Source: Mycolicibacterium monacense
Lineage (GTDB): Bacteria > Actinomycetota > Actinomycetes > Mycobacteriales > Mycobacteriaceae
Assembly (NCBI RefSeq): GCF_010731575.1
Contig: NZ_AP022617.1
Location: forward strand, 5,518,001 to 5,582,000
Length of the DNA: 64,000 bases
Reading direction: 5' to 3'
Made by a program: the position numbers and the translations under genes
Shown: piece after piece, positions 38,148 to 50,820 of the stretch
Numbering within the stretch: the stretch's first letter is position 1
Layout of the letters: every line of letters begins with the position of its first letter
The notes under the pieces: model-generated
What the model was told of the DNA's origin: nothing
The model's input: only the letters and a program-made list of their open reading frames with translations
Databases searched by the model: none

Positions 38148-39953
38148 CTACCTCGGCGCCACAAATCCGACCGGACCGGGCGATATGCACACCGACAGCG
38201 CCGCGGTGCTCGCGCTGACATTGATTGCGTCACCGGCGCCCGGCAACCGCACGAACACCCGATTCAGCCCCGGCCGCACCGGAACCTTCACCTCCGGACC
38301 CTCCGACAACGCCATCATCAACGACCCGTCGCTGTTCGCCAGGTAGTTGATCTCGGCCGTCCAGTCCGCGGGCAGCAGCGGCCCGTCCAGCGGCATCCGC
38401 ACCGGGAAATCCGGCTGCACCAGATACCCGCAGTTGGGCTCCGGCCCCGGCCGGATGGCCCGCACCCACGTCACCAACGCGTCGACCACCTGGCCCGACG
38501 GGTCCAGCATCCGCAGCTGTGTCGTACTCGGCGCGAACTCCGGTCGATCGTCGAACAACGCGAACATGTGGCTCGCCAGGTTCTCCGGCGCCGCCACCCG
38601 CTGCAGGATGAGCGGGTCGACCTCCTGGTCGAGCATCGGCTCGTCGACCCCGGCCAGCCCCGCCCGGGCATTGGCCACGTACGCCGGCACCGGGCTGTCC
38701 CGCCAGATCCGGTGGAACGTCACCGTCGAATACAGGCTGCTCACCACGAACGCGCCCACCAAAGCGACCACCACCGCGGTTCTGCGCCGCGACGCGTCCA
38801 GCCGCCGCGCGCCCGCCCGGTTCGGTGCGCAGAACCCGACCGCCATCAGCAGCGCCAGCACCACCACCAGATCCGGCAGGTACCGCAGCGTCTGCGCCAA
38901 CTCGAGTGCGGTGAACCGCGACGACCGCATCAGGTAGATCGGCACCTGGCAGGCCACCGCGTACCCGACCGCCACCGCCCACACCGGTCCGATCCGCTGC
39001 TTGCGGGCGAACGACACCGCGACGACGACCGCCCACGCCGCCCACCCCAGCACCATGACCGTCGCCGGTGGCGTCGCCCACGGCGACGCCGGCGCCCACC
39101 GCTGCCAATCCCACGGTCCGCCGACCAGACCCGGCACGATCGCGTGGGTGATGGACCGCGCCAGCAGATCCCACGTCATCGCCAGATCGAAGCTCCACCG
39201 CTTCTGGTCGACGACCAGCAGATACACCCCGACCCAGGCGGCCGTCACGGCCAGCGCCGGCACCCAGAGCCGAATCCCGCGCCGCCACACCGACACCACC
39301 GCGCCACGGTCCCCGGTGACATGCGCCAGGAGCGCGGCCACCGCGAACGCGACGAACGGGATCACCGCCGCCTTCTCGAAGAACAACAGCCCGCCGACGT
39401 ACACGGCCAAAGCCGTCACCGCGTAGCGCCGGCGCCCCGTGCGCACCAGCAGAATCGCGTCCGCACACACCCACGCCAACGCCGCCAGCATCGGCAGCGA
39501 GTTCAGCGCCGCCGCCCACCAGGCGAATCCGGGCACCGCCAGCGGTGTGAACAACGCGAACGTCAACGGCAGCAACAGAACCGGACGCCATCCCAGGATG
39601 ACGTGCAGTGTCCGCAGCAGCGCCAGCGACGCCAGGAGCTGCAGGACCACCAGGCTCAGCGCCGGCAGCACCCACGACCACGGCGCGACCCGGGTGATCG
39701 CCCCGGACAGCAGGAACGCCGCCGGCATCACGTGCCCGTCGTGATCGTCGAACAGGAACGACGGCGACAACAGCCCCTGGGTGCCGGCCCGGCCGATCAG
39801 GATCAGGTCGTCCCAGTAGAAGTAGCCGCCGAACGCCAGCACCGCCCGGACGACCAGGTGCACCGCGATCAGGCCGACGGCGGCGCGGGCAACACGGTTC
39901 AGGACTGTCCCGCTCCCGGATAGGCGGCACCGGCCGCCTGGCGCGCCGCCCAC
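38148..39953 (-). CDS. GT-C-like polytopic membrane protein, start uncertain
   Basis: About 585-601 residues with 10 or more membrane helices, then a soluble C-terminal domain of about 170 residues. FYWDDLILIGRAG follows the first helix; an acidic pair after TM1 is typical of GT-C glycosyltransferases that use polyprenyl-phosphate sugars. GTG at 39953 keeps the first helix but overlaps galE by 55 bases. CTG at 39902 would overlap the galE stop as CTGA. GTG at 39863 would cut the helix. It is the last gene of the five-gene Pls operon; I infer a role in glycosylating an exported product. Confidence 0.75.
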   Translation of the reverse strand: MGGAPGGRCRLSGSGTVLNRVARAAVGLIAVHLVVRAVLAFGGYFYWDDLILIGRAGTQGLLSPSFLFDDHDGHVMPAAFLLSGAITRVAPWSWVLPALSLVVLQLLASLALLRTLHVILGWRPVLLLPLTFALFTPLAVPGFAWWAAALNSLPMLAALAWVCADAILLVRTGRRRYAVTALAVYVGGLLFFEKAAVIPFVAFAVAALLAHVTGDRGAVVSVWRRGIRLWVPALAVTAAWVGVYLLVVDQKRWSFDLAMTWDLLARSITHAIVPGLVGGPWDWQRWAPASPWATPPATVMVLGWAAWAVVVAVSFARKQRIGPVWAVAVGYAVACQVPIYLMRSSRFTALELAQTLRYLPDLVVVLALLMAVGFCAPNRAGARRLDASRRRTAVVVALVGAFVVSSLYSTVTFHRIWRDSPVPAYVANARAGLAGVDEPMLDQEVDPLILQRVAAPENLASHMFALFDDRPEFAPSTTQLRMLDPSGQVVDALVTWVRAIRPGPEPNCGYLVQPDFPVRMPLDGPLLPADWTAEINYLANSDGSLMMALSEGPEVKVPVRPGLNRVFVRLPGAGDAINVSASTAALSVCISPGPVGFVAPR

Positions 39954-40888
39954 GCCGAGGCCACCATGTCCTCCAGCGAGTGGCGCATCTTCCAGTCCAG
40001 GTCCCGTGCGGCGAGGTCGCCGTTGGCCACGATCCGCGCCGGGTCTCCCGGCCGCCGCGGCATGATCTGCGGCTCGAAGTCGACGCCGGTGACCGTGCGG
40101 ATGGCGGTCATGATCTCGCGCACCGAGGTGCCCGCCCCGCTGCCGAGGTTGTACACCGGTTCCACCGGTTCGCCTCGGGTGAGCCGACGAGCCGCGGCGA
40201 CGTGCGCCAGCGCGACGTCGCCGACGTCGACGTAGTCGCGCACGCAGGTTCCGTCCGGGGTGGGGTAGTCGTCGCCGTTGATGCGGGGTGTGTCGCCGCG
40301 GTAGAGCATGTCGAACACCAGCGGGAACAGGTTGTGCGGGCTGGTGTCGAACAGCGCGGTCGAACCGGAGCCGACGACGTTGAAGTACCGCAGGCTGGTG
40401 TGGCGCAGACCCGACGCACGGCCCACGTCGCGCAGCAGCCACTCGCCGATCAGCTTGGTCTCGCCGTAGGGCGATTCCGGGGCGGTCGGCGTGGACTCGT
40501 CCACCTGATCGACATCCGGGGTGCCGAATGTGGCTGCGCTGGAGGAGAACACGATCTTGTCGACGCCGACGGTCTCCATCGCCTGCAGCAGCGTCACCAT
40601 CGCCGACACGTTCTGCTCATAGGTGTGCAGGGGCCGCTGGACCGACACCCCGGCGTACTTGAACCCGGCGATGTGGATGACGCCGGTGACCTCGTGTTCG
40701 CGCAGCGCCTGTTCGACGAGGGCGCCGTCGAGCAGGGTGCCGCGGACGAACGGCACGGACTCGGGTACGAACTGCTCGAGCCCGGTGGACAGGTCGTCGA
40801 TCACGACGACCGGCAGGTCGGCCTCGGTCAACGCCCGGACGACGTGCGAGCCGATGTAGCCGGCGCCGCCGGTCACGAGCCAGGTCAT
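39899..40888 (-). CDS. galE: UDP-glucose 4-epimerase (GalE-like)
   Basis: 329-residue extended short-chain dehydrogenase. The NAD motif TGGAGYIGS lies at 6-14, the catalytic Ser at 115-117 and YGETK (Tyr141, Lys145). The DNLSTG-like specificity loop reads DDLSTG (31-36). It interconverts UDP-glucose and UDP-galactose. A strong AAGGAGGG ribosome binding site precedes the ATG, which overlaps the stop of the flippase gene. It may supply UDP-galactose to the adjoining membrane transferase. Other NDP-sugar epimerase activities cannot be excluded. Confidence 0.9.
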   Translation of the reverse strand: MTWLVTGGAGYIGSHVVRALTEADLPVVVIDDLSTGLEQFVPESVPFVRGTLLDGALVEQALREHEVTGVIHIAGFKYAGVSVQRPLHTYEQNVSAMVTLLQAMETVGVDKIVFSSSAATFGTPDVDQVDESTPTAPESPYGETKLIGEWLLRDVGRASGLRHTSLRYFNVVGSGSTALFDTSPHNLFPLVFDMLYRGDTPRINGDDYPTPDGTCVRDYVDVGDVALAHVAAARRLTRGEPVEPVYNLGSGAGTSVREIMTAIRTVTGVDFEPQIMPRRPGDPARIVANGDLAARDLDWKMRHSLEDMVASAWAARQAAGAAYPGAGQS

Positions 40889-42165
40889 GGAGCCCTCCTT
40901 CGTCGAGAACGCAGGATATGCGTGCGGTCCGGTGCGCCCGCAAGTCCGGCGAGGTGCACGGCGATCCCGACCAGCGGACCGCACAGCAACGCAACCACGG
41001 TCCTGGTCTCCAGGTCCAGCGGCAGCAGCAGCAACAGCACCGCCGCCACCGTGGCGCTCACCCACCCGAGCGCGTACGTGCGGTGCATGGCGGCGGCGAC
41101 GGTCGCCGCGCCGGTCAAAGTCAGCAGCGCGATCGCCACCGCCGCCGTCGTCAACCACGCCAGCAGCGCGCCGTCGGCCTGGTACTGCTCGCCGAACCCG
41201 GCGCGCAGCAGCCACGGCCCGAGCAGTCCCGCGGCAATCACGCCGAGCGTGCCGAGTCCCAGCACCAGCGCCGACGGCGCCACCAGGGCGCGCGGGCGTG
41301 CGCTGCGCTGGTCGACGAAGTGGGCGATCAGGTTGCCCTGCATCGCCGTCAACGGCACCAGCAGCGGCGCCCGGGTCAGCGTCACGGCCAGGATCACCAC
41401 CCCGCCGGTGGCGCCGAGATCGTCCGACGTCGCCTTGAGCAGGACGGGGAACCCCATCACCAGGACGGCGCTGGCTCCCGCGGCGGCGATCGAGTGCGCG
41501 GCGCCGCGCAGGAACGTCGTCGTACTGCCCGGCGTGCGCAGGCGCGCGGCGGCCCGGGTGGCGGGGGAACAGACGAGCAGGAGCAGCCAGGCGATCGCCC
41601 CGCCGACGGTGGCCCACAGGAATCCGCCAAGACCCCAGCCGACGGCGAACGTCGCCACGGCCACCAGGACACGGATCACCGCGTCGGTCACCATGAGCGC
41701 CCCGTACTGCGTCCAGCGGTTGACGCCGGCCAGCATGCCGAGCAGCGTCGCGTGCACGCAGAACCCGGCCAGTCCGGCGCTGAGCAGCAGCACCGACAGC
41801 CACCGCGCCTCGACGAACACGCGGCCCGCCCACAGCGGCGCCGTCACCACGATGAGGACGGCGGCGACGACGCCCACCACCGCGCCGATCCGCACGGGGT
41901 GGGTGTGCGGACCGTCGCCCGCGTGCTCCACCCGGGCGTCGCGGACCTCCCGCGTCGCCTCCTGCAGCAGGCCGAACGCCGCCCCGCTGGCCAGACCGAA
42001 GGCCCCCCAGAACACCCCGAACACCGAAAAACCCTCGGGTTCCAGGTCGCGGGCCGCCAAATAGAGCACCGCGTAGCCGCACAGCGCGGTCACGGCCGTC
42101 GCGATGCCGACCCGCGCCACGCTGCTCCGCGTGACCGGGCCGGTCGACGGCGCCGCGTCGGTCAC
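40885..42165 (-). CDS. MOP-superfamily polysaccharide/lipid flippase-like protein
   Basis: 426 residues with about 12 predicted membrane helices. Arg/Gly-rich short loops and the repeated arrangement of the Wzx/MurJ (MOP) superfamily are visible. It resembles Rv3630 in size. GTG at 42165 overlaps the aminopeptidase stop by four bases, and its own stop overlaps the galE ATG. It probably flips a lipid-linked or peptide product made by the operon across the membrane. The direction and substrate are inferred only from context. Confidence 0.82.
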   Translation of the reverse strand: MTDAAPSTGPVTRSSVARVGIATAVTALCGYAVLYLAARDLEPEGFSVFGVFWGAFGLASGAAFGLLQEATREVRDARVEHAGDGPHTHPVRIGAVVGVVAAVLIVVTAPLWAGRVFVEARWLSVLLLSAGLAGFCVHATLLGMLAGVNRWTQYGALMVTDAVIRVLVAVATFAVGWGLGGFLWATVGGAIAWLLLLVCSPATRAAARLRTPGSTTTFLRGAAHSIAAAGASAVLVMGFPVLLKATSDDLGATGGVVILAVTLTRAPLLVPLTAMQGNLIAHFVDQRSARPRALVAPSALVLGLGTLGVIAAGLLGPWLLRAGFGEQYQADGALLAWLTTAAVAIALLTLTGAATVAAAMHRTYALGWVSATVAAVLLLLLPLDLETRTVVALLCGPLVGIAVHLAGLAGAPDRTHILRSRRRRAP

Positions 42166-43490
42166 AGCTTCGGCAGATCCTCGGCGTAGAGCCAGGCATC
42201 CCACAGCGGGCGCAGTGACTCGTCGGCGTAATTGGCTGCCAGACCGGTGAAGTCGTCGGTGAACGCCGTGCTGTGACGGTGTCGCGCCGTCCAGTCCCGC
42301 AGCAGGGCGAAGAACTTCTCGTCGCCGATGCGGGTGCGCAGCACATGCAGGGTCAGCGCGCCGCGTTTGTACACCCGGTCGTCGAACATGTCCTTCGGAC
42401 CGGGGTCGGCGAGCAGGAGGTCCTGGGGCAGATCGGTCAGCCGTTCGTGGTAATGGTGAGCCCATTCGTCGGCGCTGCGGCCGCCGGAGTTCTCCGACCA
42501 CAACCACTCCGCGTAACACGCGAAACCCTCGTGCAGCCAGATGTCGCGCCACCGGCGCACGGTGACCGAGTTGCCGAACCACTGGTGGGCCAACTCGTGT
42601 GCGATCAACCGCTCGGCCCTGCGCGTGCCGTCGCAATGGTTGGCGCCGAAGATCGAAATACCTTGTGCCTCAAGGGGTATCTCGAGGGCGTCGTCGGTCA
42701 CCACCACGGTGTAGCCGCTCGCCAGCGGGTACGGTCCGAACAGCTTCTCGAACAGTTTCATCATCTGTGGTTGGCGGCCGAAGCTGTGGTCGAAGTTGCG
42801 GCGCAGCCGGGCCGGCAGGGCGGCCTGGATGGGCACCGGCGACTTCGCCAGCTTGTGCACGTCGTACATGCCGATCTGCAACGTGATCAGGTACGTCGAA
42901 GTCGGTTCGGCCTGCTCGTAGGTCCACACGGTGTGACCCGCCCTGGCGCGGCGAGACACCAACTCGCCGTTGGCGATCGCGCGGTACGGGCTGTCGGTGC
43001 TGATCTGGATGCGGTAGCTGGCCTTCGCGCTGGGGTGGTCGTCGCACGGGAACCACGAGGATGCGCCGTTGGGCTGTCCCGCGACCAGTGCCCCGTTCGT
43101 CAGCTCCTCGAAACCGACGTCGCCCCAGAGGGTTTCGATCGGTTCGGGGGTGCCGCCGTACCGGACCTCCACGACCAGCGCCGCGCCGGCAGGCAACGCC
43201 GAGGACAACTCGACCCGCAGCTTGTCGTTCGCACAGGAGAACCGGGCGGGTCGGCGGCCGTTGACCGCCACCTTCGTCACCCGCAGGGTGTCGGCCAGAT
43301 CCAGGGTGAAGGTGCGCAGCGCAGCCAGCGTGACGGCCGTGATCGACGCCGAACCCGACAACCGGTTGATCGCGACCTTGTACTCCAGGTCGAGTTCGTA
43401 CCGCGACACCCGGTACCCGAAGTTGCCGGTCTCGGGCAGGTAGGGGTCGATGACGGCCGGGGTGTTCTTCCCCTTCTTCGACCGCGTCAC
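42162..43490 (-). CDS. M1-family zinc aminopeptidase
   Basis: 442 residues, about half the size of PepN-type M1 enzymes and limited to the N-terminal beta and catalytic domains. Zinc site HELAHQWFGNS...WLHEGFA is at about 298-323 (HExxH plus Glu 18 residues on). The exopeptidase signature normally GxMEN reads IPLEA: the Glu is kept, the Asn is Ala. No signal peptide is seen. GTG at 43490 overlaps the stop of the Pls-like synthetase, so translation is coupled. In poly-lysine producers, Pls is accompanied by a zinc aminopeptidase that degrades the polymer, so this enzyme may trim or detoxify the product. Confidence 0.9.
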   Translation of the reverse strand: MTRSKKGKNTPAVIDPYLPETGNFGYRVSRYELDLEYKVAINRLSGSASITAVTLAALRTFTLDLADTLRVTKVAVNGRRPARFSCANDKLRVELSSALPAGAALVVEVRYGGTPEPIETLWGDVGFEELTNGALVAGQPNGASSWFPCDDHPSAKASYRIQISTDSPYRAIANGELVSRRARAGHTVWTYEQAEPTSTYLITLQIGMYDVHKLAKSPVPIQAALPARLRRNFDHSFGRQPQMMKLFEKLFGPYPLASGYTVVVTDDALEIPLEAQGISIFGANHCDGTRRAERLIAHELAHQWFGNSVTVRRWRDIWLHEGFACYAEWLWSENSGGRSADEWAHHYHERLTDLPQDLLLADPGPKDMFDDRVYKRGALTLHVLRTRIGDEKFFALLRDWTARHRHSTAFTDDFTGLAANYADESLRPLWDAWLYAEDLPKL

Positions 43491-46400
43491 GCGGCCGAGT
43501 CCTCGGGGTCACGGGCGGCTTTCTTCTTCTTCGCCGACGCCTCGCCGCGCTTCTTGCGCAACGGATTCCACGGCGCGATCGGATTGCCCTGCCAGCGGGT
43601 CGAGGCCGGGACCTCGTCGCCGCGCATGACCAGCGAGCCCGGTCCCACCGTCGCGCCCGCGCCCACCCGGGCCGCGGGCAGCGCCACGCAGTGCGGTCCC
43701 AGCGTGGCCCCGTCCTCGAGGACGACGGTGTCCATCCGCATGATGCGGTCGTGGAACAGGTGGGTCTGCACCACGCACCCGCGGTTGACGGTGGCGCCCT
43801 CGCCGAGGGTGACCAGATCCGCCTCCGGCAGCCAGTAGGTCTCACACCAGACGCCGCGGCCGATCTTCGCGCCGAGGCCGCGCAGCCAGAGGTTCATCAC
43901 CGGTGTGCCACTGGCGGCACGGGCGAACCACGGCGCGGCCACCGTCTCGACGAACGTGTCGGACACCTCGTTACGCCATACGAACGACGACCACAGCGGG
44001 TGCTCGATGGCCTCGATCCGTCCGATCACCACCCGCTTCGCCAGCACGGCGACGGCGCCGGCGACCGCCCCGGCCACCATCAGGACCACTCCGCCCAGGA
44101 CTGCGGCCCACAGGTAGCCCAGGTGAAACACCAACGCCTGCAACGACAGCAGCACTCCGACCCCGATCGCGAACGTGACGATCACCGGAATCAGCCGGCA
44201 CGTCTCGACCGCACCGCGCATCGCCTTCAGTCGGGGGGTGGGGTGGAAGGTGCGCAGCGCGTCGGCGGCGGTGGGCCGGCGGCGCAACCGGACCGGCGGA
44301 CTGCCCAGCCAGGAGGATCCGGCCTTCGCCTTGCGCGGTGTCGCCGACAGCACCGCCACCAGACCGTCGTCGGGCACCTTGCGGCCCGGCTGGGTGATGC
44401 CCGAGTTGCCGAGGAAGGCGCGCCTGCCGACGGTGGCCTTCGCGACGTGGATCCAGCCGCCGCCCAGTTCGTAGGACGCGACCATGGTGTCGTCGGCGAG
44501 GAACGCACCGTCCTCCACGACGGTGAACTTCGGCGTGAACAGCGCTGTGGAGATCTCGGTGCCGCTGCCCACCTGCGCGCCCAGCACGCGCAGCCACCAC
44601 GGGGTCAGCAGGCTGGCGTAGAGCGGGAACAGATAGTTGCGGGCGGCGTCGAGGAGCCGCTCGGTGGCCCACACCTGCCAACCGATCCGGCTGCGCACCG
44701 GGTGGTAGCCCTCCCGCAGTCCGAGCGACAGCAGCCGCACGCCCGCCACTGTCAACGCCGCGTAAAGGAGCACCGCGACGACCGTGGCGACCGGCGTCCA
44801 CAGCAGCGCCGGAAGGATCGCGTCGGACACCGACGCGGTGTCGCGCACACCCCAGCCGATCACGGCCAGTCCGGCCGCGAGCGCGAGCAGCGGCAGCCCG
44901 CCGAGCAGCATCGATGTCAGCCCGTAGACGGCCACCCACAGCGGCGCGCGCGGCGGGCGGTGACCCGGCCACGGGTGGCGGGCCTTCCCGGACTTCGCCG
45001 CCGGTGAACCCGTCCAGTACTGGCCGTTCTTGACCTTGCCGGTGACGGCCGACCCGGCGGCCACGTCGGCGTTCTTGCCGACCGCCGCACCGGGCAGCAG
45101 GGTGCTGCGCGCGCCGATGGTGGCGTCGTTGCCGATGGTGATGTGCCCCACGTGGAACTGGTCGCCGTCGATCCAGTGCCCGGACAGGTCGACTTCGGGC
45201 TCCACCGAGGAGCGGTGCCCGATCTTGAGCATGCCCGTCACCGGCGGCGCCGAATGCAGGTCGACTTCCTTGCCGACCGAATTGCCAAGCGCGCGAGCGT
45301 AGTAGACCATCCACGGCGCACCCGCGAGGTTCTCGGCGCCGCTGGCCGCGGCGAGTCGTTCGGCCAGCCACACCCTCAGGTGGACGGCACCGCCGCGACG
45401 GTAGGTGCCCGGTTGCAGGTTGCCCAGCAGCATGCGCGCGAACAGCACCGCGATGCCCATCCGGCCCACGGGCGAGACGAACAGCACGAAACCGGCCAGC
45501 ACCACCCACCAGTTCGGCGGGACCGCCCACGACACCAACGGGAATTCGGCGGCGACGTTGTTCAGCAGCGCCAGCCACACGACCCACTGCAGTGCGGTCA
45601 GCGTGGCCAGCGGCAGCGTCAGCACCACCTGGGCGGCCTGCGTGAGCCGCGGTGTCGGTGCGACCTCGCGGGTCACCACCTGCGGCGGCGGGTCGAGTTC
45701 GTCGAGGTATCCGGCCAGCGACCCCAGGCGCGGGTGGTCATAGAGGTCGGCCACGGTCACCATCGGGTAGCGCTGCCGCAGCGCGACCACCAGCTGGGCC
45801 GCCGACAGGCTGCCGCCGCCGCAGGCGAAGAAGTCCGCCTCGGGGCCGTCGACCGGGGCGGCGAGCACGTCGTGCCACAGTCCGGCCAGCCAGCCCATCG
45901 TGCCGCTCATGGCGGGCGCCGCATCCTCGGCGCCGGCCACCGGCCAGGGCAGCGCGTCGCGGTCGACCTTCCCCGACGTGCGGGTGGGCAGTTCGTCGAC
46001 CAGGACCAGGCGCGGGACCAGTGCCGCGGGCAGCGCCTCGGCGAGTGCGGCGCGGGCCGCGGCCAGGTCGAACGACGGATCCGCGCTGGCCACGTAGCCC
46101 ACCAGCAGCGGTGTCCCGCTGGAGGTGCGGCGCGCCGCGGCCGCGCCGCCGCTCACCCCGGGCAGGTGCACCAGCGCCGCATCGACCTCGCCGAGTTCGA
46201 TGCGCCGACCGCCGACCTTCACCTGATCGTCGGCCCGTCCCATGAAGTAGAGACCCTCGGCCTCCAACCGCACCAGGTCGCCGCTGCGGTACGCGCGGTC
46301 CCAGCCGAGAGTCGGCATCGGGGCGTACTTCTCGGCGTCTTTCTCCGGGTCGAGGTAGCGGGCCAGCCCGACCCCGCCGATCACCAGTTCGCCGACCTCG

Positions 46401-47422
46401 CCGAAGGGCACCGGCGCACCGTCCTTGTCGACGACCGCCAGATCCCAGCCGGGCAGTGGCAGGCCGATGCTCACCGGCGACCTGCCGTCGAGCCGGGCTG
46501 CGCACGCCACCACCGTCGCCTCGGTCGGACCGTAGGTGTTCCAGACCTCCCGTCCCTCGACCGCGAGCCGTTCGGCCAGATCCGGGGGGCAGGCCTCCCC
46601 GCCGAAGATCAGCAGCCGGACCGCTTCGAGCGCCTCGGCAGGCCACAGCGCCGCGAGCGTCGGCACCGTCGAGACGACGGTGATGTCGCGGGACACCAGC
46701 CACGGCCCCAGATCCATACCGCTGCGCACGAGCGAGCGCGGTGCGGGCACCAGGCAGGCGCCGTGCCGCCACGCCAGCCACATCTCCTCACACGAGGCGT
46801 CGAACGCGACCGACAATCCGGCGAGCACCCGGTCACCGGGGCCCAGCGGATTGTCGGTGAGGAACATCTTGGCCTCGGCGTCGACGAAGGCGGCGGCGCT
46901 GCGGTGGGTGACGGCCACGCCCTTGGGGACGCCGGTGGAGCCGGAGGTGAAGATGATCCACGCGTCGTCGCGGCTGAGCGGCGCGACCGCGCGCCACCCG
47001 CGCGACGATCCGGGCCCGCGGACCAGGCCCCGCTCTGTGATGACGGCGACCACGTTCGCCTCGGTGAACACCAGTTGTGCGCGCTCGTCGGGATCGTCGG
47101 CGTCGACGGGGACGTAGGCGGCGCCGGTGGCCAGGGTGGACAGGATCGCGACGTACAGCGCGTAGGTGCCAGACGGCATCCGGATGCCGACGCGGTCACC
47201 CCGCCCGATTCCGCGGGCGGCCAGCCACTCGACGCTGTCCTCGATGTCGGCGATCAACTCGGCGTAGGTCAGCTGGACGGTGCCGTCGTCGATGGCGGGA
47301 GCGTCGGGATGGCGGGCGGCGGTCTCGTGGAGGATGTCGACGAGGGTGCGTGGCGCGGCGGCGAACGTGGACTGGAGGTACTGGTGGGGGAGGCCGGCGC
47401 CGGGAACCGCTGCTGTCACCAC
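43487..47422 (-). CDS. Pls/PosA-type single-module nonribosomal peptide synthetase with membrane LbH domains
   Basis: 1311 residues. The adenylation domain (about 25-510) has core motifs FTSGSTGVPKG, the amino-acid Asp in AFDASCEE, NTYGPTEA, YRSGDL, and RTSGKVDRD. The carrier domain has the phosphopantetheine Ser near 535 (CGGGSLSA). Three C-terminal soluble segments rich in hexapeptide left-handed-helix repeats (about 720-790, 950-1010, 1180-1275) alternate with membrane helices starting near 595. This matches the A-T-TM-C1-C2-C3 plan of epsilon-poly-lysine synthetase; there is no condensation or thioesterase domain. The product is predicted to be an isopeptide-linked amino-acid homopolymer or conjugate. 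It starts at GTG 47422 (or 47419) and heads the operon. Confidence 0.92.
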   Translation of the reverse strand: MVTAAVPGAGLPHQYLQSTFAAAPRTLVDILHETAARHPDAPAIDDGTVQLTYAELIADIEDSVEWLAARGIGRGDRVGIRMPSGTYALYVAILSTLATGAAYVPVDADDPDERAQLVFTEANVVAVITERGLVRGPGSSRGWRAVAPLSRDDAWIIFTSGSTGVPKGVAVTHRSAAAFVDAEAKMFLTDNPLGPGDRVLAGLSVAFDASCEEMWLAWRHGACLVPAPRSLVRSGMDLGPWLVSRDITVVSTVPTLAALWPAEALEAVRLLIFGGEACPPDLAERLAVEGREVWNTYGPTEATVVACAARLDGRSPVSIGLPLPGWDLAVVDKDGAPVPFGEVGELVIGGVGLARYLDPEKDAEKYAPMPTLGWDRAYRSGDLVRLEAEGLYFMGRADDQVKVGGRRIELGEVDAALVHLPGVSGGAAAARRTSSGTPLLVGYVASADPSFDLAAARAALAEALPAALVPRLVLVDELPTRTSGKVDRDALPWPVAGAEDAAPAMSGTMGWLAGLWHDVLAAPVDGPEADFFACGGGSLSAAQLVVALRQRYPMVTVADLYDHPRLGSLAGYLDELDPPPQVVTREVAPTPRLTQAAQVVLTLPLATLTALQWVVWLALLNNVAAEFPLVSWAVPPNWWVVLAGFVLFVSPVGRMGIAVLFARMLLGNLQPGTYRRGGAVHLRVWLAERLAAASGAENLAGAPWMVYYARALGNSVGKEVDLHSAPPVTGMLKIGHRSSVEPEVDLSGHWIDGDQFHVGHITIGNDATIGARSTLLPGAAVGKNADVAAGSAVTGKVKNGQYWTGSPAAKSGKARHPWPGHRPPRAPLWVAVYGLTSMLLGGLPLLALAAGLAVIGWGVRDTASVSDAILPALLWTPVATVVAVLLYAALTVAGVRLLSLGLREGYHPVRSRIGWQVWATERLLDAARNYLFPLYASLLTPWWLRVLGAQVGSGTEISTALFTPKFTVVEDGAFLADDTMVASYELGGGWIHVAKATVGRRAFLGNSGITQPGRKVPDDGLVAVLSATPRKAKAGSSWLGSPPVRLRRRPTAADALRTFHPTPRLKAMRGAVETCRLIPVIVTFAIGVGVLLSLQALVFHLGYLWAAVLGGVVLMVAGAVAGAVAVLAKRVVIGRIEAIEHPLWSSFVWRNEVSDTFVETVAAPWFARAASGTPVMNLWLRGLGAKIGRGVWCETYWLPEADLVTLGEGATVNRGCVVQTHLFHDRIMRMDTVVLEDGATLGPHCVALPAARVGAGATVGPGSLVMRGDEVPASTRWQGNPIAPWNPLRKKRGEASAKKKKAARDPEDSAA

Positions 47423-47530
47423 TTCAAACTACTAAGCAGCCCGCCGGACGGACCCCGCGGCGCGAGCGGTGGGGGGTGACAATTGCATCAAGGCGGGTAC
47501 CCACCGAGAATTCGCTTCAACGGACCCCGA

Positions 47531-47692
47531 TTGGCCCGGCCGGCACCGGCCGGGCACAATTCTCATCCGGAGGGGAGTATTCCTTCGCCGCGGTGTCGTC
47601 ATTACGTCGTCCGTCATCGGACGACCGGTGCTGCGGGCCGACGCGTCGGGCGTCGGCGGAAGAGACCTCCGGCGTGTTAGACGACCGGAGGT
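47531..47692 (+). promoter_or_regulatory. yybP-ykoY-type Mn2+ riboswitch controlling terC, with promoter
   Basis: The promoter is TTGGCC (47531-47536) and CACAAT (47555-47560). The leader has both hallmark conserved segments of yybP-ykoY RNAs: GGGGAGTA (47572-47579) and GTCGTCATTACG (47595-47606). P1 forms from CCGGAGG (47567-47573) and CCTCCGG (47666-47672). The 3' strand, ACCTCCGG (47665-47672), is also exactly complementary to CCGGAGGT (47685-47692), the terC ribosome binding site. Mn2+ binding should stabilise P1 and free the site, giving translational activation. TerC follows at once, the usual target. Confidence 0.9.
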
Positions 47693-47699
47693 ATATCGA

Positions 47700-48740
47700 G
47701 TGAACGTTTCCGCCCTGGAGTGGGGCATCACCATCGCGGTCACAGTGGCGGTGCTGCTGTTCGACGTGGTGGCCATCGCGCGGCGTCCCCACGAGCCGTC
47801 GATGAAGGAATGCTCGATCGCGCTGTCGGTCTACGTATCGCTGGCCATCGCGTTCGGGGTCTGGGTGTGGGTGTTCCACGGCGGCGACTACGGCCTGGAG
47901 TTCTTCGCCGGTTGGCTCACCGAGTACAGCCTGTCGGTCGACAACCTGTTCATCTTCATCATCATCATGGCCAGCTTCAACGTGCCGAGAAAGTATCAGC
48001 AGGAAGCGCTGATGGTCGGCATCATCCTGGCCCTGATCTTCCGCGGCATCTTCATCGCGCTCGGCGCGGTGGCGATCAACCAGTTCTCCTGGGTGTTCTA
48101 CATTTTCGGGCTGTTCCTGGTGTACACCGCCTGGAATCTCGCCAGGGACACCGACCATGAGGACGACGGCGACAACGCCGTGGTCAAGTTCGCCCGCAAC
48201 CACCTGACGCTCACCGACAAGTGGGACGGTCTGAAGCTGTGGATCAAACAGGACGGCAAGCGGCTGATGACGCCGATGTTCCTGGTGATCGTGGCGCTCG
48301 GCACCACCGACCTGATCTTCGCGCTGGACTCGATCCCGGCGATCTTCGGTCTGACGCAGGAGCCGTATCTGGTGTTCACCGCCAACGTCTTCGCGCTGAT
48401 GGGTCTGCGGCAGCTGTTCTTCCTGCTCGGCGGTCTGCTCAAACGGCTGGTGTACCTGTCGCAGGGCCTGGCGTTCATCCTGCTGTTCATCGGCGTGAAG
48501 CTGTTCCTGCACGCCCTGCACGAGAACGAGTTGCCGTTCATCAACGGCGGTGAGCACGTGAAGGTGCCGGAGATCCCGACGCTGCTCAGCCTGGCCGTCA
48601 TCGTCGTCACCCTGGTCATCACGACCGTCCTGAGCCTGATGAAGACGCGGCGCCAGAGCACCGACGAGATCACCGAGGTGGACCCGAAGGCCGAGGACAA
48701 GATCGAGGACGACGGCGAGAAGTCCTTCGACTCCCGCTGA
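47700..48740 (+). CDS. TerC-family membrane protein (manganese-related)
   Basis: 346 residues with about nine membrane helices and the family motifs SVDNLFIF (about 80-87) and DLIFALDSIPA (about 202-212), whose aspartates lie in the membrane and may bind cation. A charged loop (DTDHEDDGDN) and a charged C-terminal tail are present. GTG at 47700 has GGAGGT 7 bases ahead. TerC/Alx proteins export Mn2+ or metallate exported proteins, and the manganese riboswitch in the leader supports that over tellurite resistance. Confidence 0.93.
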   Translation: MNVSALEWGITIAVTVAVLLFDVVAIARRPHEPSMKECSIALSVYVSLAIAFGVWVWVFHGGDYGLEFFAGWLTEYSLSVDNLFIFIIIMASFNVPRKYQQEALMVGIILALIFRGIFIALGAVAINQFSWVFYIFGLFLVYTAWNLARDTDHEDDGDNAVVKFARNHLTLTDKWDGLKLWIKQDGKRLMTPMFLVIVALGTTDLIFALDSIPAIFGLTQEPYLVFTANVFALMGLRQLFFLLGGLLKRLVYLSQGLAFILLFIGVKLFLHALHENELPFINGGEHVKVPEIPTLLSLAVIVVTLVITTVLSLMKTRRQSTDEITEVDPKAEDKIEDDGEKSFDSR

Positions 48741-48776
48741 TCCCAACCGTCGCCACCGCACCGGCAGCGGCCTACC

Positions 48777-49187
48777 GTGGCGTCCGTGCGGCTATTCGTG
48801 GCGGATCGTGGTGAGTGGGACGAGTTGACCGACGGCGACCGGGATGCGGTGCGGGTGAGCGCCCCCGATCTGCAGCAGGCCCGCCGGGCGCGCGCCCGGA
48901 TCCGGGCCGGCGCGGACGACGTCGCGGTGATCCTCGATGTGACGGTCGCTGTGGGCGCCGACTTCCGGTCGGCGCGCACGGCCTTCCGCCCGGACGCCGA
49001 CGGTGACGGCACCGTGCGGTATGCCGGCACCCTCGATGGGCTCGCCGGCCTGATCGCCGACATCGAGACGGCCGACGTCGCCGACGGCGTGACCCTGCTC
49101 GCCGCGGCGCCGCGGCAGGATCTGTGGGCGCTGGGCCGCGATGTGCTGGCCCGGCTGGCGTTGCGGGGTCAACCGCGGGCGTCGTAG
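48777..49187 (+). CDS. Hypothetical protein, possibly monooxygenase-associated
   Basis: 136-residue soluble protein. It is acidic at the N-terminus, with a beta-alpha pattern (VAVILDVTVAVGADF; VTLLAAAPRQDLWALGRDVLARLALR). GTG at 48777 is the first start; GTG at 48786 is equally possible. It is 43 bases ahead of the aldehyde dehydrogenase, same strand. The C-terminal half vaguely resembles bacterial luciferase-like enzymes' barrel ends, but I do not recognise the family. Confidence 0.65.
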   Translation: MASVRLFVADRGEWDELTDGDRDAVRVSAPDLQQARRARARIRAGADDVAVILDVTVAVGADFRSARTAFRPDADGDGTVRYAGTLDGLAGLIADIETADVADGVTLLAAAPRQDLWALGRDVLARLALRGQPRAS

Positions 49188-49230
49188 CGCAGCTTGGACA
49201 GCCGCAGAACCGGCGGCTTAGCGTGCACGT

Positions 49231-50820
49231 ATGACTCCGGCGTCCCAGACTCAACCGATCGGCCAGATGCTCATCGCCGGTGCGGCAGTGCGCGGTGTCG
49301 GGGCCGAGATCCACGGTTTCGACCCCACCGCGGGCATCGAACTCGGACCCGGATACCGCTACGGGGACGCCTCACACGTCGACGCGGCGTGCGCTGCCGC
49401 GGCCGCGGCGTTCGGGCCGTACCGCAGCACGCCCGCGGAAGCGCGGGCCCGACTCCTCGAGGCGATCGCCGACGGTCTCGTCGCGATCACCGACGACCTC
49501 GTCGCCCGCGCGCACGCCGAATCGGGACTCCCGCGAGCGCGGCTGACGGGTGAACTCGGCCGCACCGCCGGACAGCTGCGGCTCTTCGCCGCCGTGCTGC
49601 GTGAGGGCAGCTGGAACGGCGCGCGCATCGACACGGCCCAACCCGATCGCACCCCGCTGCCCCGTCCGGACCTCCGCCAGCGCGCCGTACCGCTGGGGCC
49701 GGTCGCCGTCTTCGGGGCGAGCAACTTCCCGCTGGCCTTCTCGGTCGCCGGCGGCGATACGGCATCCGCGCTGGCGGCGGGGTGCCCCGTCGTGGTCAAG
49801 GCGCACGACGCGCACCCGGGCACCTCCGAATTGGTCGGGCGGGTGATCACCGACGCGGTCGCCGCGTCCGGGCTGCCGCCCGGCACCTTCTCGCTGCTCA
49901 ATCTCACGCAGGACGGCGCCATCACCCTGGTCACCGATTCGCGTGTCAAGGCGGTCGGGTTCACCGGTTCACGGGCCGGTGGGCTGGCGCTCGTCGACGC
50001 CGCGGCGCGCCGGAGGGAACCGATCCCCGTCTACGCGGAGATGAGCGCGGTCAACCCGGTGTTCCTGCTCGGCGGCGCGCTCGTCCGTGGGGCCGACCTC
50101 GGGCGGGCGTTCGTCGAATCGCTCACGCTGGGGTCGGGTCAGTTCTGCACCAACCCTGGTCTGATTGTCGCGGTGGACGGACCCGGGCTCGACGCCTTCA
50201 TCGACGCCGCGTGCGAGGCGGTGGCCGGATCGGCCGCGACGGCGATGCTGACCCCGGGGATCGCAGAAAGCTACCGCGCCGGGGTCGAGGCGCTGACCGG
50301 GCAGGCGACGCTGATCGCCCGCGGTTCGGCCGACGGCGATGCCGCAGTGTCCTGCCGCGCCGCATTGTTCAGCACCGATGCGGTCAGCCTGCTCGGGTCG
50401 CCGACGCTGCAGGCGGAGGTCTTCGGAGCGTCGAGCCTGATCGTGCGCTGCGCCGACTTCGAGGAGCTGAGGACCGTCGCCGCCGGCATCGACGGACAGT
50501 TGACGGCCACCCTGCACGCGGACGAATCCGACCACGACCAGGCCGCTGCCCTACTGCCGATTCTCGAACTGAAAGCGGGCCGGATCGTGTTCAACGGTTG
50601 GCCGACCGGCGTCGAGGTGACCCATGCGATGGTGCACGGTGGGCCGTTCCCGGCCACCTCGGATTCGCGCACCACATCGGTCGGATCCCGGGCGATCGAA
50701 CGGTTTCTGCGCCAAGTCTGCTATCAGAACGCACCGGCGGCGCTGCTGCCCACGGCCCTGGCCGACGGCAACCCGGAGCGCCTGTGGCGACGGGTCGACG
50801 GGGAACTCACCAGAGACTGA
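49231..50820 (+). CDS. Aldehyde dehydrogenase, ketoglutarate-semialdehyde type
   Basis: 529 residues of the NADP-type ALDH subgroup that includes 2,5-dioxopentanoate (alpha-ketoglutarate semialdehyde) dehydrogenases, whose members are around 520-530 residues. Catalytic Cys306 is in GQFCTNPG and Glu270 in EMSAVNPVF. The nucleotide site has GASNFPLAFSVAGGDTASALAAGCPVV in place of the usual WNFP stretch. It would finish sugar-acid or hydroxyproline breakdown to 2-ketoglutarate. No such pathway genes are adjacent, so the substrate is open. Confidence 0.9.
   Translation: MTPASQTQPIGQMLIAGAAVRGVGAEIHGFDPTAGIELGPGYRYGDASHVDAACAAAAAAFGPYRSTPAEARARLLEAIADGLVAITDDLVARAHAESGLPRARLTGELGRTAGQLRLFAAVLREGSWNGARIDTAQPDRTPLPRPDLRQRAVPLGPVAVFGASNFPLAFSVAGGDTASALAAGCPVVVKAHDAHPGTSELVGRVITDAVAASGLPPGTFSLLNLTQDGAITLVTDSRVKAVGFTGSRAGGLALVDAAARRREPIPVYAEMSAVNPVFLLGGALVRGADLGRAFVESLTLGSGQFCTNPGLIVAVDGPGLDAFIDAACEAVAGSAATAMLTPGIAESYRAGVEALTGQATLIARGSADGDAAVSCRAALFSTDAVSLLGSPTLQAEVFGASSLIVRCADFEELRTVAAGIDGQLTATLHADESDHDQAAALLPILELKAGRIVFNGWPTGVEVTHAMVHGGPFPATSDSRTTSVGSRAIERFLRQVCYQNAPAALLPTALADGNPERLWRRVDGELTRD

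Follow-up and report, generated by a model that had tools for sequence, protein, structure and literature searches.

The window analysed here, a stretch of 64,000 nucleotides of the Mycolicibacterium monacense genome, holds a pls-like gene and, directly downstream of it, a gene for an M1 metallopeptidase (Table 1). The first-pass annotation of this DNA had described, with the strand unstated, a 1311-residue protein with an adenylation (A) domain, a carrier domain and membrane helices and without condensation or thioesterase domains, and Pfam, NCBIfam and hydropathy bore this out. Pfam recognised an AMP-binding domain (residues 32-355, 215.5 bits), the carrier domain (45.3 bits) and hexapeptide repeats (45.5 bits, two stretches), and neither a condensation nor a thioesterase domain was found among the four Pfam families that match the synthetase at E <= 0.01. 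The score of the terminal domain against the NCBIfam model TIGR02353 lies well over the curated cut-off of 423.1, which makes the protein a member of the Pls/PosA family. Synthetases of this class are already annotated automatically, by the NCBIfam model and as cluster type NAPAA. A simple Kyte-Doolittle scan gave hydrophobic stretches at about residues 599-620, 639-663, 828-860, 867-902, 1070-1109 and 1096-1134 (the last two overlap), which, on this simple hydropathy, agrees with an arrangement of the C segments between three helix pairs in the membrane. The M. monacense genome (a single 6.04-Mb contig) contains one match over the TIGR02353 cut-off and two more, weak, below it.

Table 1. Positions in the window of the two genes and of their domains and motifs
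Feature	Position	Strand	Remarks
pls-like gene, 1311 aa, putative A-T-TM-C1-C2-C3 cationic homopolymer synthetase	43487..47422	minus	GTG start at 47422, TGA stop 43487-43489
Adenylation domain, residues 7-497	45932..47404	minus	aligned to 7wew, E 4.6e-196
First pocket residues D208, A209, E212 of DAESIGTVVK	46787..46801	minus	other pocket residues 251, 272, 274, 296, 304, 305, 485
Carrier (thiolation) domain, residues 511-573	45704..45892	minus	carrier serine S538
Pls/PosA terminal (polymerisation) domain TIGR02353, residues 597-1282	43577..45634	minus	744.6 bits
C1 segment, residues 664-833	44924..45433	minus	profile comparison
C2 segment, residues 903-1069	44216..44716	minus	profile comparison
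C3 segment, residues 1135-1292	43547..44020	minus	profile comparison
C3 motif Q1219-x-H1221-x3-D1225	43748..43768	minus	candidate polymerising site
M1 metallopeptidase, 442 aa, PldII-like by position	42162..43490	minus	PF01433 100.4 bits, PF17900 53.3 bits
Zinc site of M1, H298-E299-x2-H302 ... E321 (HExxH-x18-E)	42528..42599	minus	80/80 rows
GTGA stop/start overlap, synthetase TGA stop with M1 GTG start	43487..43490	minus	

Beside the pair lies a divergent TerC/Alx-type metal-homeostasis gene (47469-48740, plus strand, 380.6 bits to TIGR03718), the true start of which is probably nearer 47700 because most relatives' matches begin well inside the ORF. As a partner of the pair it was rejected and treated as a neighbour, since only 24 of 80 loci (best 80 of at least 586 relatives) have a TerC match. 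On the other side, an 815-residue ORF (39899-42346, minus strand) has a GalE-type epimerase match that covers residues 487-809 only; its first half resembles an out-of-frame translation and the real GalE-type gene is therefore probably at about 39899-40890. An Rfam scan of 39800-50000 gave nothing at E <= 0.1, and neither a riboswitch nor any RNA element is therefore assumed.

Adenylation pocket and predicted monomer

The A domain shares 329 of 489 aligned residues (67.3%) with the solved epsilon-poly-L-lysine synthase 7wew, and its pocket, DAESIGTVVK, is the same as that of 7wew at ten positions of ten, so L-lysine is the predicted monomer. A comparison with the Pls and PosA codes had been proposed beforehand, and the code proved to be that of a known amino-acid-activating domain (7wew). 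It is unlike those of the ornithine enzyme PosA (DMEHNGTVSK) and of the poly-beta-lysine enzyme (DGESISVVNK), and alanine at pocket position 2 is described as the mark of lysine enzymes in PMC10522769. All 78 complete rows (the window and 77 loci of the best 80 of at least 586 relatives) keep DAESIGTVVK, and three truncated loci agree with it wherever letters are present. None of 81 rows, the best 80 of at least 586 relatives included, lacks the carrier serine, the loss of which in relatives had been named as possible counter-evidence. Being the best 80 of at least 586, the compared loci are near relatives; the closest one fetched among them is Mycobacterium sp. GA-2829 (L071) at 93%.

Coupling of the synthetase to an M1 metallopeptidase

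The GTGA overlap between the synthetase stop and the start of an M1 aminopeptidase gene had been noticed already, and it recurs widely. A 4-base overlap is found in 56 of the 79 relatives that have downstream sequence (43 GTGA, 9 ATGA, 4 TTGA), a 1-base overlap in 14 and none in nine, and with such numbers the overlap is not due to chance. All 79 loci whose sequence continues far enough, out of the best 80 of at least 586 relatives, have an M1 homologue after the synthetase on the same strand, at a distance of 0.6-2.2 kb in five of them, three from Tsukamurella and two from Williamsia (together L039, L041, L042, L045 and L050). Viewed by eye, the gap holds an ORF resembling a GNAT acetyltransferase in the three Tsukamurella loci and a minus-strand ORF resembling a DoxX-type membrane protein in the two Williamsia loci.

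The M1 protein consists of the N-terminal and catalytic domains only, and in the PDB it is matched best by 6a8z and 6iff, zinc metalloproteases of 474 residues. The zinc ligands are kept in 80 of 80 rows, which come from near relatives (best 80 of at least 586), and the M1 tyrosine in 79, with one gap. GAMEN, the usual substrate motif of M1 metallopeptidases, is absent; most rows have an IP[LIV]EAQ-type motif in its place, the glutamate is kept in 80/80, and the Pfam family match stands. No signal peptide is obvious from hydropathy. A protein-database search found 92% identity to an entry named Mycolicibacterium litorale, and the matches listed were only near relatives, generically named where named, with no PldII among them.

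Within the order we compared 40 hand-picked stretches, in which M1 is found beside 18 of the 21 synthetases with a lysine code (DAESV in one case) and beside none of the 19 others, namely 13 with DFE codes and six with another protein or without a readable code in the picked ORF; these counts are not independent because several stretches share one genome and the lysine-code members are all related. The DFE-code members have the same domain order and the C3 H/D motif in common with the window protein, whereas they are only about 27-34% identical to it over their length and M1 is beside 0 of the 13 fetched. By analogy with phenylalanine at position 2 in PMC10522769, DFE codes would be of the diaminobutyrate/diaminopropionate type. 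PMC8117764 likewise gives other homopolymer synthetases a different gene context, and the same was seen here in a different set, that of 40 loci. Three lysine-code synthetases (L091, L093, L116) had no M1 in the fetched 8 kb; they perhaps have another degrading enzyme or none. For whole genomes, 47 were chosen from the 394 sampled in the genus, and the M1 protein (E <= 1e-60) was detected in 10 of 10 chosen with the synthetase, one of which has an in-frame TGA in its matched stretch, and in 0 of 37 chosen without it.

Three homologous segments in the polymerisation unit

Three LbH-like segments had been proposed for the C-terminal part, and the proposal held up in two ways. By sequence, C1 and C3 match PDB entries of the LbH type, among them beta-helix acyltransferases and gamma-carbonic anhydrases, with none for C2 among the matches listed. 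In profile-profile comparison with hhalign, C1, C2 and C3 are mutually homologous with probabilities of 99.8%, 99.9% and 99.5% over 151-162 columns, compared with 0.5%, 2.3% and 0.5% in three reversed-column control runs; C1-C2-C3 is a triplication. A mutational study of C1-C3 has reportedly been published. The polymerisation domain of PosA has been modelled as three beta-helices packed with three-fold symmetry (PMC10522769), and the three-fold beta-helix idea is therefore already in print.

What is added to that model by our alignments is an asymmetry between the segments. Across 35 rows that span lysine-code and DFE-code members, six unusual ones of the 40 picked loci (L089, L090, L098, L104, L106 and L118) being left out, H1221 and D1225 of C3 never change, and Q1219 is there in all but one. 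They are also invariant in all 49 rows of alignment A1, which comprises the window and 48 loci drawn from the 109 remaining after 11 with an in-frame stop in the match were set aside, and in which L098, L104, L106 and L118 are included with the same C3 residues. The aligned positions in C1 and C2 vary or differ (H, N or Y in C1 among those shown; Y in C2 of the window), and C3 is the only one of the three segments in which a histidine is kept there throughout the family. Beta-helix acyltransferases have a histidine base at the subunit interface, and the H1221/D1225 pair of C3 is a candidate polymerising site. Further invariant polar residues in A1 are E1152, R1181 and E1200 in C3 and D977 and N1006 in C2; as the two in C2 are invariant in the family, C3 need not act alone, and the reactive centre may lie between C2 and C3. 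Two of the picked loci, L104 and L106, have ORFs of 886 and 841 residues with a Pls-type terminal domain and without an adenylation domain in the ORF, and the C3 H/D is kept in both.

Distribution and probable function in mycobacteria

The TIGR02353 cut-off was exceeded in 294 of 394 genomes that had been sampled evenly from a larger number in the genus, and in 139 of 298 genomes of the order, while matches below the cut-off are meaningless, as 13 of 14 control genomes have them at E <= 0.001 and one control exceeds the cut-off. Some genomes of the genus hold synthetase fragments, at contig ends or interrupted. In G040 (C1:6127063-6130929), a one-contig genome, the match is split over adjacent pieces, as in other genomes of the genus, and this could reflect either decay of the gene or a mistake in the assembly. 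A quick-method tree of 54 rows (the window and 53 of 120 loci) placed the 16 mycobacterial rows in one group with support of 100, which, at the level of the gene tree, is in keeping with vertical inheritance. A mycobacterial-type pair at 79% identity also occurs in L030, a record titled Bifidobacterium breve MAG, the label of which is probably wrong. A 20-base diagnostic insertion-sequence primer for the tuberculosis complex matched once in 20 genomes of the genus (G094, with synthetase), and a single 20-base match identifies nothing. For the A-T part, the TM-C part and M1, dN/dS was 0.083, 0.108 and 0.083 against L071, 0.14, 0.18 and 0.18 against L002, and 0.16, 0.22 and 0.24 against L013. 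Both the synthetase and M1 are under strong purifying selection.

Epsilon-poly-L-lysine is a natural food preservative. Gene pairs of this kind have been published for Streptomyces albulus and for Corynebacterium variabile, the latter of the same order as this mycobacterium. In S. albulus, pldII overlaps pls by 4 bp in one operon (PMC4361855), the two are translationally coupled and repression of pldII lengthens the polymer (PMC9223678); inactivation of PldII had no effect on the polymer in another study (PMC8506220), so the reports differ on this point. The polymer chain is held non-covalently and PldII is outside the membrane (PMC9205021). The window resembles this operon in domain order, in pocket residues (7wew) and in the 4-base overlap with a downstream peptidase gene. 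It differs in that M1, which is likened to PldII by position and not by sequence, has no obvious signal peptide. The C. variabile operon of synthetase and peptidase has the same architecture in a distinct lineage, and mycobacteria were not named among the hits in the sets of cheese and skin isolate genomes (PMC8117764). Expressed in the heterologous host S. coelicolor, the C. variabile enzyme gave free polymer confirmed as epsilon-poly-L-lysine, and no polymer was detected in C. variabile itself or in C. glutamicum expressing its gene (PMC8117764); the presence of the gene does not, therefore, prove production. PosA, the delta-poly-L-ornithine synthetase of Acinetobacter baumannii, belongs to the same family and has the modelled three-fold polymerisation domain, but its gene forms a single-gene operon without a peptidase (PMC10522769).

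It is likely, at a probability that we put at about 0.8, that the two genes are a pls-pldII-type operon in which epsilon-poly-L-lysine is made by the synthetase and hydrolysed by the coupled M1. What was observed here is the order of the domains, the identical pocket, carrier and zinc sites that are intact, the gene overlap, the co-occurrence and the purifying selection, and the chemistry, the product and the role of PldII come from the Streptomyces and Corynebacterium literature, by analogy with which the mycobacterial pair would act in the same way. The A domain would adenylate L-lysine and load it onto S538. The membrane-held C1-C2-C3, a putative triplicated beta-helix acyltransferase, would then transfer the lysyl residue to a side-chain amine, either that of a free lysine or one in the growing chain, which is held non-covalently, with epsilon-poly-L-lysine as the product. 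C1-C2-C3 might act together as a single pseudo-trimer whose reactive centre lies at C3 (H1221/D1225) and perhaps includes C2 residues, and the translationally coupled zinc peptidase would hydrolyse the polymer within the cell that makes it, be it as self-protection or as turnover. PldII would itself be an M1 enzyme, judging from gene position. Against the operon reading we count the three of 21 lysine-code loci without M1, the location of PldII outside the membrane as opposed to the lack of an obvious signal peptide, by hydropathy, in the M1 protein here, and a PldII docking model with metals at D44/T45/D173/K174 and not at an HExxH site (PMC9223678).

It is also conceivable, though unlikely, that no polymer is made and that one or a few lysines are transferred to another acceptor, for example an envelope molecule. 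Sugars are commonly modified by beta-helix acyltransferases and native C. variabile had no detectable polymer, but the family match is whole-length with all three C segments, the coupling to a peptidase is conserved and a free polymer results when the C. variabile enzyme is expressed in another host (PMC8117764). The first-pass annotation had suggested either a cationic homopolymer or attachment to a surface molecule; the former agrees with the Pls-type synthetase, the predicted lysine monomer and the coupled metallopeptidase, and nothing here suggests that anything but lysine or its oligomers is the acceptor. We consider it improbable that the enzyme is a synthetase of the same kind with a different diamino acid as its substrate (ornithine, beta-lysine, diaminobutyrate or diaminopropionate). 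Such enzymes do exist in the family, pocket codes predict substrates imperfectly and the M218A variant of PosA gains lysine activity, hence specificity is broad-edged (PMC10522769), whereas the pocket here is that of the poly-lysine enzyme throughout and the 13 fetched DFE-code members lack M1. A decaying or silent remnant, as the 100 of 394 genomes without a match over the cut-off and the several with fragments only might suggest, is very unlikely in view of strong purifying selection on both genes, catalytic residues intact in all compared rows and 294 genomes over the cut-off.

The first-pass annotation knew of no description of such a system in this mycobacterium. The pls-pldII operon as such has been published, for S. 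albulus and C. variabile; no study of pls-type genes or epsilon-poly-lysine in mycobacteria was found among the titles listed in the literature searched (subscription journals not covered). With this kind of system already known, its breadth in mycobacteria and its role there are what is of interest. Tentatively, and with doubt about the whole, one could go further and suppose both a genus-wide, vertically inherited lysine-polymer system, selected for a housekeeping or envelope task rather than as an occasional antibiotic, in which the coupled peptidase turns the polymer over on the spot, and a synthetase family that throughout uses one polymerising centre, formed about the C3 histidine of a beta-helix pseudo-trimer, this histidine being lost in the other two copies.

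Synthetase and M1 occur together so tightly that the pairing can serve as a genomic marker of the lysine-type members, and the C3 motif offers a handle on how isopeptide bonds may be formed without a condensation domain in the Pls/PosA family. Should the two genes function as proposed, roughly three quarters of the species sampled in the genus (294/394) could make a strongly cationic antimicrobial polymer, which would bear on the envelope charge of mycobacteria, on competition and on cationic antimicrobials.
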